A DNA stretch of 64,000 nt, taken from positions 3,596,001-3,660,000 of the forward strand of contig NC_018691.1 in NCBI RefSeq assembly GCF_000300005.1, read 5' to 3'. Shown here in pieces: positions 8,125 to 20,582 of this stretch; position 1 is the stretch's first letter; every line of letters begins with the position of its first letter. Both the position numbers and the translations under genes were made by a program. Source of the DNA: Alloalcanivorax dieselolei B5 (GTDB taxonomy: Bacteria > Pseudomonadota > Gammaproteobacteria > Pseudomonadales > Alcanivoracaceae). Below the pieces are notes generated by a model. That model saw only the letters and a list, made by a program, of their open reading frames with translations. It did not search any database and had not been told where the DNA came from.

Positions 8125-8201
8125 GCCGCTGTGGGAGCTTGTCCGGGCAGCGGGCCGCTGCGTCCAAGGAATTCGCTTGCAGGGCAAGCTCCTACAGCGG
8201 C
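8125..8201. repeat. REP-like inverted pair
   Basis: The segment 8125–8144 (GCCGCTGTGGGAGCTTGTCC) and 8182–8201 are inverted copies matching at 18 of 20. The GTGGGAGC core followed by a GC-rich stem is the pattern of Pseudomonas REP sequences. The flanking CTTCGTAGCA recurs at 38121–38130. Confidence 0.7.
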
Positions 8202-8244: not shown

Positions 8245-8314
8245 GGAGAGCCGGCGGGCAGTGTTCCAGGACCGTGCTTCTCCCGTGTCCTGGAACACTG
8301 CCCGCCGGCTCTCC
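8245..8314. repeat. Long-stem hairpin, copy 1
   Basis: A perfect 28-bp inverted repeat (8245–8272 with 8287–8314) around a 14-nt loop. A second copy sits at 20456–20525 with paired substitutions in both arms. No T-run follows on either strand, so it is not a typical terminator. Confidence 0.9.
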
Positions 8315-8340: not shown

Positions 8341-8518
8341 ATGGCGGTGGCAAAAAGAATCGTCCGGAACGATTCACGACGTCGCGTCAGCGACGGCCCG
8401 CAGGGCCGCCGCCAAGGATGGCGGTGGCAAAAAGAATCGCCGGGAGCGATTCACGACGTCGTACCAACGACGGCCCGCAGGGCCACCGCCAGGGATGGCG
8501 GTGGCAAAAAGCCGCACC
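8341..8518 (+). repeat. 77-bp tandem structured repeat (2.3 units)
   Basis: Unit 1 is 8341–8417, unit 2 is 8418–8494, and a truncated third unit runs 8495–8518 (its first 17 bases match). The two full units differ at 9 of 77 positions. Each can fold into a closing stem plus three hairpins, and the differences preserve pairing: unit positions 23/29 change T-A to C-G, 45/50 change C-G to T-A, and 8/68 change from T·G to T-A. Three other differences fall in loops. It ends 32 bp before the start of the kinase gene. Confidence 0.85.
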
Positions 8519-8550: not shown

Positions 8551-9744
8551 ATGACCGGATTGCCTCCCTACGTAGTCTGGCGCCGCCGCATGCTCTGGCT
8601 GCGGGCGGTGCTGGTGATCGCCCTCGCCCTGGCGCTGCTGGTGCTGCGCCAGTTTTCAGCGCTGGTGCCGCTATCACTCACGCCACTGCTGTGGCTGGGC
8701 GCGCTACTGCTGCCCAATCTGTTGACCCTGCTGACATTGAATCTGGATCCCCGCCCTCAGCAACGTCTGCTGGCGGTGGAGCTGGCCATGGACGTGCTGC
8801 TGTTTCTCGCCGTGGTGCAACTGTTCGGCGGCGCCAGCAACCCGATGACCTTTTACCTGCTGGTACCGGTATTGATGGCCGGCATGACCCTGCCCCCCAT
8901 GACCAATGGCCTGGTGCTGATTCTCGCCCTGACCGGTTATATGACGGTGAGCCAGTGGCACCACATGCCCGCCCCCCATACCGCTCTGCACGCTCTGACC
9001 CGGGAACTGAGCGCCCTGCACAATATCGGCATGGCGGTGGCTTTCGCCGCGCTGGCGGTGACGCTTTCCATCCTCGGTCAGGTGATCCAGGCCTTGACCC
9101 GGCAACAGCAGCGTCAGCAGGACAAGGCCATGGAACTGGCCGGGCGCCGCGAGCGCATGTACCAGGTGGCGGCGACACTGGCCCACCAGGCCCACGAACT
9201 CAACACCCCGTTGAGCAGTCTGGTGATGATCAGCGATAACGCCTTGCAGGAGCCCGGGCTGTCCGGCACCACGCGCGCCGATCTGGAACAAATCCACGCA
9301 CTGGCCCGGCAGGTCGCCGGCAAGCTGCGCCGGGCCGATCACCATGACGTCCCCGAGGACATCGATTTCGCCGCCCTGATCGACCGCTTGCGCCTGCACC
9401 TCAGACATCTGCAACCCACCCTGGAGATCCGCCATCAGGGCCCCGACCACGCCGTGCTCAAACAGGCCAGCGACTGGTTCCGGGTGCTTGCCAATCTCGG
9501 CTACAACGCCATCGATGCCGGCGCCGGCACGCTGGCGATTCAATTGAGCACGGCGCCGGAGGAGTGGCGCCTGCAGATCAGTGATGATGGTCCGGATCAT
9601 CCGGAACGCCCCGGCCGCGAGGGGATGGGCATCGGCCTGGCGCTGGTGGAGAGTACCCTGGAAAACCTGGACGCACGGCTGGAGATGGAATTCAGCCGGC
9701 AATGGACCCAGGCCCGCATCCGTTGGAGTGGTTATGGCGCTTGA
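8551..9744 (+). CDS. RegB/PrrB-like sensor histidine kinase
   Basis: Membrane sensor kinase of 397 residues with an N-terminal bundle of about six membrane helices (residues 15–180). It has a GGASNPM segment near 91 that matches the GGxxNPF quinone-site motif of RegB/PrrB/ActS kinases. The H-box is AHELNTPLSSL, and an ATP-binding domain ends with DDGPDHP and GMGIGLALVES. RegB senses the quinone pool and a redox cysteine; here no cysteine occurs anywhere in the protein. The ATG at 8551 follows CGCGCCC and has no clear ribosome site. It overlaps the response-regulator gene by 11 bp. Confidence 0.85.
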   Translation: MTGLPPYVVWRRRMLWLRAVLVIALALALLVLRQFSALVPLSLTPLLWLGALLLPNLLTLLTLNLDPRPQQRLLAVELAMDVLLFLAVVQLFGGASNPMTFYLLVPVLMAGMTLPPMTNGLVLILALTGYMTVSQWHHMPAPHTALHALTRELSALHNIGMAVAFAALAVTLSILGQVIQALTRQQQRQQDKAMELAGRRERMYQVAATLAHQAHELNTPLSSLVMISDNALQEPGLSGTTRADLEQIHALARQVAGKLRRADHHDVPEDIDFAALIDRLRLHLRHLQPTLEIRHQGPDHAVLKQASDWFRVLANLGYNAIDAGAGTLAIQLSTAPEEWRLQISDDGPDHPERPGREGMGIGLALVESTLENLDARLEMEFSRQWTQARIRWSGYGA

Positions 9745-20309: not shown

Positions 20310-20400
20310 GAAGGGGCTGCGAAGCTACTGTAAGAGCTTGCCTTGCAAGCGAATTCCCCAACGCTGGGGGACCTGGTTGGTCAGCAGGGCTAGCTCCTGC
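20310..20400. repeat. REP-like segment, inverted relative to 8125–8201
   Basis: CTGCGAAGCTACTGTAAGAG and GAGCTTGCCTTGCAAGCGAA read as the complement of the block found at 8160–8210. The cassette orientation is therefore reversed here, while the adjoining long-stem hairpin keeps the same orientation. Confidence 0.55.
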
Positions 20401-20455
20401 GGCGGCGTCAAACAAAGCCAGGTGGCAAATCGAACCGGACGGTTGCAGAGCTCGT

Positions 20456-20525
20456 GGAGGGCCGGCGGGCAGCGTTCCAGGACCGTGCTTCTCCCACGTC
20501 CTGAAACGCTGCCCGCCGGCCCTCC
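20456..20525. repeat. Long-stem hairpin, copy 2
   Basis: Arms 20456–20483 and 20498–20525 pair at 27 of 28 positions around a 14-nt loop. Compared with the copy at 8245–8314, two base pairs are changed on both sides (A-T to G-C and T-A to C-G), and the loop is the same except for its last two bases. Confidence 0.9.
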
Positions 20526-20582
20526 TTACCTGGCAAAGAACTCCCCCCAACCCACATCTGACTTCATGTCTCCAATGTCGGC

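Follow-up and report, generated by a model that had tools for sequence, protein, structure and literature searches.

The DNA in front of a sensor kinase gene of Alloalcanivorax dieselolei B5 raises the question of what kind of element a short tandem repeat with covarying stems represents. The repeat lies at positions 8341-8518 of the window, the whole stretch of 64,000 nucleotides that was analysed (NC_018691.1, positions 3,596,001 to 3,660,000). An initial annotation described two full 77-bp units and a truncated third, and the repeat is real: TRF finds a tandem repeat at 8341-8511 with a period of 77, 2.2 copies and 0% indels, both full units align without gaps, and the third copy, in the frame of that annotation, comprises 17 matching bp (8495-8511). 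A by-eye recount of the sites that differ between the units gave the same number as before, nine (23, 25, 29, 45, 46, 47, 50, 68 and 75), and from 8518 to the kinase ATG at 8551 the distance is 32 bp, as first given for the end of the array. The neighbours are a 97-aa ORF without a Pfam match on one side and, on the other, the sensor kinase, which has HATPase_c above the cut-off and HisKA under it and is followed by a response regulator. An orthologous array is present in three sister genomes, with 2, 1 and 1 full units plus partial ends (L031, L032 and L033). In RNA folds, both units surpass all 200 shuffles (plus strand, z -4.6 and -4.2; minus strand, z -3.1 and -4.0), and the folds contain the stems 17-23/29-35 and 40-45/50-55, the short GC hairpin and the closing stem in the numbering of the initial annotation. 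The initial annotation knew of no described element with such a form, and an Rfam scan of the window returned 0 families at the gathering threshold.

Two other types of repeat were noticed in the window. One is a second hairpin family (8245-8314 and ~20452-20529) with a 28-bp perfect inverted repeat, a core of GTTCCAGGAC..GTCCTGGAAC and changed outer stems; six distinct copies occur in the window and the fetched loci, four of them in loci that were fetched for the 77-bp element (L005, L032, L156 and L157). The other consists of REP-like GTAGGAGCTTGCC repeats (<=2 mismatches) at ~8131-8195, 20330-20400 and 40504, and L112 has a Y1 transposase gene flanked by repeats of a similar type.

The frame of the unit was taken from single-copy members of the family, which, read on the minus strand of the window, consist of a T-run, the hairpins H4, H3, H2 and H1, and a further T-run that closes the unit. 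The unit is 74-77 bp long (74-76 bp at the eight sites measured), with stems of ~9 bp in H4, 2-3 bp in H3, 6 bp in H2 and 7-9 bp in H1. The frame first proposed is thus a permutation of the natural order H4-H3-H2-H1, and there is no closed cloverleaf. The stems of the initial annotation all occur in the folds, and in that respect it stands; its closing stem, on the other hand, joins half-hairpins of neighbouring units, the arms of which form the local hairpin H4 in single-copy members. Of the 75 positions at which the left arms of neighbours differ (47 arm sets), 41 preserve local pairing and 20 preserve cross-unit pairing. The natural frame and the preference for local over cross-unit pairing led us to reject a cloverleaf or tRNA-like RNA, in agreement with the earlier view that the arms are not tRNA-like.

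All features of the window array are read on the minus strand. Unit 1 (8429-8505, 77 bp) comprises the four hairpins and its own T-run (8429-8433); the covariance model matches 8431-8516 (G000:3604431-3604516, minus) with 96.5 bits, and with DNA parameters the unit folds at z -6.0 on the minus strand and -6.3 on the plus strand. Its parts were placed from the folds and from alignment A2, which holds 46 hand-picked genus units (59 regex hits, minus nine spurious or partial ones and four near-copies of array siblings). H4 (8482-8505; alignments and DNA fold) has the plus-strand loop CAGGGATG, the family form being CANGGANG. It is followed by the short CC..GG hairpin H3 (8474-8481; A2), by H2 (8457-8472, CGTCGT..ACGACG; A2 and DNA fold) and by H1 (8434-8452; A2 and DNA fold), which forms a terminator-like right end with the T-run behind it. 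Unit 2 (8352-8428) has the same layout and a model match at 8354-8434 (G000:3604354-3604434, minus) of 84 bits. The partial third unit (8341-8351) retains the left arm of H4 only, as a third GGCGGTGGC adjoining an A-run, and partial H4 copies occur at array ends elsewhere too. The array begins at a T-run (8506-8510) behind a moderate hairpin (dG -9.0; row L267); this T-run is presumed to be the target, no empty allele of this particular site having been found.

The search with a covariance model that the initial annotation suggested uncovered a large dispersed family. In the home genome (G000, one contig of 4.93 Mb; other G numbers denote genus genomes), the array as blastn query matched 36 times at E<=1, and model R1, which was used for the family searches, found 41 matches at E<=0.01 in ~35 places, with no clear replication-strand bias as judged by eye. 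R1 matched all 13 genomes of the genus (2 to 80 times each, G000 being one of the 13) and 83 of 390 genomes drawn from the order, in 44 of 142 genera, the own genus included. A pattern scan of named genomes returned at least 120 stretches; the 80 matches listed were mostly from Pseudomonas and Alloalcanivorax/Alcanivorax, and the rest came from Salinicola, Stutzerimonas, MAGs and one each of Kluyvera and Brenneria. A blastn search with one unit (L049) gave no match at E<=1e-3 in plasmids, phages or E. coli. In the literature searched, which holds few subscription papers, the titles and abstract openings among the matches listed did not describe this element, and three core sequence strings had no literature match. 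Several loci carry further structure: in L106 (1268-1971), a 0.7-kb stretch of repetitive coding-like sequence, by eye resembling a type I restriction specificity gene, contains four copies; the element sits inside longer inverted repeats, the outer arms of which differ between both loci, in L098 and L102 (~1440-1660); and three copies at 234-bp spacing lie in a larger tandem repeat near a tRNA gene in L100 (1501-2054). An Rfam scan of seven related loci gave only a tRNA neighbouring the element in L100 at threshold.

The copies show a marked preference of place. The 80 loci from named genomes yielded 95 array-first units, or 84 sites once near-identical upstream flanks were removed, a set that retains a few internal units (e.g., in L185 and L178). 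A T-run of at least 5 precedes 71 of these 84 sites, and a hairpin of dG <=-10 kcal/mol ends at the run in 48 of the 71, compared with 128 of 488 other T-runs in the same loci (Fisher 3e-11). In the home genome, a strong hairpin plus T-run was found at 18 of 31 sites against 7 of 53 T-runs of the window (p 4e-5); this count was made by hand from 40 rows, with six internal units and three lacking a left end set aside. Thus, in Alloalcanivorax and the pseudomonads, most copies lie behind a T-run, mostly the tail of a terminator, with H4 on the T-run side. Order-wide, only 11 of 31 sites follow five or more Ts, 8 of these 11 with a hairpin of <=-10 compared with 9 of 147 control runs. The target rule is therefore not strict, as these sites and the alleles of L057, L050 and L056 indicate; our impression from the order-wide loci is that the element's own end is often less T-rich, and that target and end may change together. 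A special link to the kinase, which the position of the window array had suggested, is not supported, given that the model matches ~35 places in the genome and that 18 of 31 countable sites lie behind strong terminators. The window copy might influence the kinase leader, but no feature sets it apart from the others.

Comparison of orthologous filled and unit-free alleles shows insertion of single units. At the cleanest site, L056, a single unit of exactly 75 bp lies between CCATTTATT and GAATCC in G005 when compared with G007 and G003; the gain (or loss) took place at a TT/G junction, and no more than TTG (3 bp) is common to both ends. At two more sites, the unit stands exactly behind the T-run of a terminator that is also present in unit-free sisters. 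The site at G000:842831 is filled in G000 and G012 and unit-free in G001 and G011, where the terminator of the upstream gene is intact; this terminator, more diverged, also occurs without the unit in eight further sister genomes fetched. The unit of G012 at this site is broken by a further insertion of ~0.3 kb, and this insert (L265, 1652-2087) holds a second, diverged set of unit-like hairpins (22 bits). At G000:2106451, the unit is present in G000, G001 and G011, and G012 lacks it. A terminator plus T-run without a unit was also seen in G007 and G008 at L049 and in G010 at L052, the right flank differing in both cases. Other alleles fit less well: G007 and G008, unit-free at L057, lack a T-run there, and G002 offers only TTTCTT at L050. 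The target at L056 is TTTATT, and at L048, the G004 allele consists of the terminator and then a short H4-like remnant. The model found no unit in 23 of 24 comparison alleles, the exception being G012 at G000:842831. By parsimony, the direction would be gain rather than loss. An apparent REP-associated tyrosine transposase gene is interrupted by a copy in two distant genomes, at an identical CTTTT site; three of the four gene pieces, scanned apart, match below the family cut-off (Y1_Tnp, E 0.0035; REP_Tyr_transpos, 4e-4 and 5e-5) and one has no match. The four clustered copies of L106 come from a third genome.

The explanation that we favour, and regard as probable rather than secure, takes the repeat for a short array of a 74-77 bp mobile DNA element that is non-autonomous and favours terminators. 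An enzyme acting in trans would probably move it in the form of folded single-stranded DNA. The L057 and L050 alleles slightly reduce our confidence in this explanation. Alternatively, a passive terminator-associated repeat could spread through recombination between T-runs, with no enzyme involved. Many junctions do have T-run homology, and the search for an enzyme, described below, tied none to the element; however, the exact difference of one unit where only TTG is common and the presence of copies within genes make passive spread very unlikely.

The initial annotation had read the paired changes between the units as the trace of selection on a folded RNA or a cruciform, a reading that copies breaking the stems as often as keeping them would have refuted. 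Across the family, the stems are kept far more often than they are broken. In A2, 93.5% of cells are paired, and changes occur on both sides in 17 of 26 pairs. Two further alignments, A3 (106 distinct units from named genomes) and A4 (33 from order-wide loci), are model-fitted and hence biased towards the model; they have 93.2% and 93.1% of cells paired, with 16 pairs and 21 of 26 pairs changed on both sides, respectively. When partners were slid by 1-3 columns as a control, 26-54% of cells paired, and the covariation score was reached by 0 of 500 shuffles in A2 and in the model-fitted A3 and A4. Mispairs bear on which molecule is constrained, as an RNA under selection should tolerate G-U more readily than A-C. 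On the strand read, G-T and A-C cells number 30:30, 55:67 and 10:26 in A2, A3 and A4, a modest test since the cells are not independent. Constraint on one RNA strand is not indicated, although the A-C excess in A4 would favour the complementary strand; the structure thus seems to be held by constraint on the DNA or by a mutational process that acts symmetrically. Of the two forms first proposed, a fold that is selected for (or preserved by a mutational process) stands, and the data lean to folded DNA in view of the insertion polymorphism and the lack of a G-T excess over A-C.

The symmetric process would be template switching in the hairpin, which copies arm onto arm without selection; quasi-palindrome correction of this type is a known process. 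It predicts the near-equal G-T and A-C mispairs, but conservation of the H4 and H1 loops, the layout common across genera, the dispersal and the target choice are left unexplained. As a full account, mutational compensation is therefore quite unlikely, though it can operate alongside the mobile element.

The conserved loops also permit a reading as functional RNA, in which plus-strand GGA-loop hairpins would bind CsrA/RsmA, either as a decoy or, here, as the leader of the kinase mRNA. Among 179 distinct units, H4 reads CANGGANG on the plus strand in 155 and H1 reads YCNGGAR in 151; both resemble the CsrA/RsmA consensus. Sub-threshold scores were obtained on the corresponding strand for rsmX (35.9 bits, L099) and RsmY (20.9 bits, L034; 19.3 bits, L099). 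These are far under the gathering thresholds (56 and 57 bits), L099 also gives RsmY 27.7 bits on the opposite strand, and the rsmX/RsmY scores in the seven related loci were judged to be chance or loop resemblance. Moreover, A2 and A3 show no wobble bias that would mark one RNA strand, and a protein reading DNA hairpins would explain the loops equally well, so a functional RNA seems unlikely.

Arrays and partial copies offer a view of how units are added. Of 20 array units in the named loci, 5 have their nearest relative within their own array, as do 12 of 22 in the genus, where orthologous copies were kept in the comparison. Arrays thus appear to lengthen in two ways, through units that insert independently behind an older one and through local duplication; the former fits the target rule, as H1, the T-run and the following G resemble the target. 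Partial copies in the home genome (E<=1e-3) keep the left half more often, with 17 left-only and 7 right-only copies on a strict reading (p 0.06) and 15 against 5 in a narrower count (p 0.04). This excess slightly favours copying begun at the T-run, and decay under selection for the terminator would match too. In such an RNA-templated insertion, a plus-strand RNA ending in an A-run would be reverse-transcribed from the 3' end of a nicked terminator T-run, with H4 copied first and incomplete copies lacking H1. Group IIC introns, which are retroelements, likewise insert behind terminator stem-loops, according to the accessible part of PMC7923331. The truncation bias is weak, however, and selection keeping the upstream terminator could produce it; full copies have a sharp right end, and the RNA-strand constraint is not seen. 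We therefore regard RNA-templated insertion as improbable.

For the favoured mobile DNA element, a mechanism can be outlined. The moving form would be folded single-stranded DNA. Hairpins near both ends share a TCCN loop core, which suggests reading by a single-strand transposase: an enzyme of the HUH/Y1 type, acting in trans, might cut and join the DNA after recognizing H4 and H1 through these common loops. Against this mechanism, H4 begins almost at the left junction and leaves little room for a left guide of the IS200/IS605 kind. The right end of a unit (hairpin, T-run and G) would mimic the target, so that new units could land behind old ones, and local duplication may add further units. 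Landing behind terminators presumably does little damage, which would help the element to spread.

The search for the mobilising enzyme tied none to the element. No copy with an ORF between its ends was found in the 80 loci with both half-models, where the pattern that chose the loci requires H3, H2 and part of H1 at once. Five Y1 matches (E<=0.01) occur in the home genome, and 2 to 5 (E<=1e-3) in each genome of the genus with no visible relation to copy number, the profile missing some relatives. The five home-genome Y1 transposases gave no tblastn hit at E<=1e-4 in 120 contig stretches. Among the 58 plus five Y1 loci fetched, only one orthologous place, in the four high-copy genomes, has a unit next to a Y1 gene; wider relatives of that gene (E<=1e-20) co-occur loosely with the element, in 37 of 83 carriers and 62 of 307 non-carriers, a comparison uncorrected for kinship. 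A RAYT as dedicated mobiliser is accordingly not supported by the tblastn, Y1-locus, copy-number and co-occurrence comparisons. Separately, in L113 and L114, Y1 transposase genes lie near CTGTCCCCTTTTT tracts that fit GGGGWSAS, the terminal-repeat motif given for TIR-flanked tyrosine transposases in the accessible part of PMC3733652. A bolder and rather unlikely reading is that the family represents a ~75-bp mobile class that homes to intrinsic terminators and founds growing arrays through the terminator mimic at its own end, by means of an enzyme tied to no repeat family so far, possibly with T-run-primed copying of its own RNA.

Short dispersed repeats are common in bacteria, but only for a few of them have the target choice and the mobiliser been established. 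Here, the preferred target (a terminator T-run, TT/G), the ~75-bp unit, its orientation and its unit-free alleles can all be deduced from the sequence, and sister species with few or many copies are available (2 to 80 matches), which together make the search for the enzyme tractable. The window array also carries a warning that covarying hairpins in tandem need not mean a functional RNA.

Among known systems, REP, BIME and REPIN sequences with their RAYT (TnpA-REP) are, like the element, short, palindromic, dispersed, non-coding and common at gene 3' ends, and the hairpins of both are thought to be read as single-stranded DNA. The element differs in its unit of 74-77 bp with four hairpins, its TT/G junction, where TnpA-REP cleaves at CT or CA according to the accessible part of PMC8266576, the lack of a GTAG tag beside the hairpin in any of the 46 units of A2, and the lack of a regularly adjoining RAYT gene. 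CGTC-REPs (Di Nocera 2013, PMC3733652) have no known transposase, and many units of the element share with them a CGTC before H1; the accessible part of that paper, which does not mention Alcanivorax, gives them a CGTC, an 8-9 bp stem beginning with AT residues and mostly a CCA tail. Compared with these features, the CGTC of the element is an arm of H2 and variable (CGTT, GGTC, TGTG), its stem is A-rich with an AA or CA start in most units, and its tail is TG.

MITEs resemble the element in being non-coding, dispersed, 70-300 bp long and hairpin-folding, and target-site duplication is one of their traits; the element has no clear target duplication, at most 3 bp (TTG) being shared at L056. They are also defined by terminal inverted repeats of 15-30 bp (PMC3733652, in its accessible part), whereas no such pair joins the ends of the element, H4 and H1 being different hairpins. 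Integron attC sites were set aside by inspection, as the consensus has neither a GTTRRRY nor a RYYYAAC core box. Group IIC introns share insertion directly behind terminator stem-loops (PMC7923331, in its accessible part), but they are ribozymes with a reverse transcriptase, and 75 bp is too short for an intron core. Non-autonomous elements derived from IS200/IS605 come closer. The rules of that type, namely end hairpins, little duplication and oriented placement, are partly those of PMC8266576, and the element likewise has a hairpin close to either end, lies in a set orientation 3' of a short sequence and shows no duplication; as differences, no relative of tnpA/tnpB with the same ends was found in the 80 loci, and no left-end guide tetranucleotide was identified. 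GTAG-REP, CGTC-REP, MITE, attC, group IIC intron and Rfam thus each fail on a defining feature. By analogy, the element appears to work most like a non-autonomous IS200/IS605-type or REP-type element, a likeness rather than an identification.
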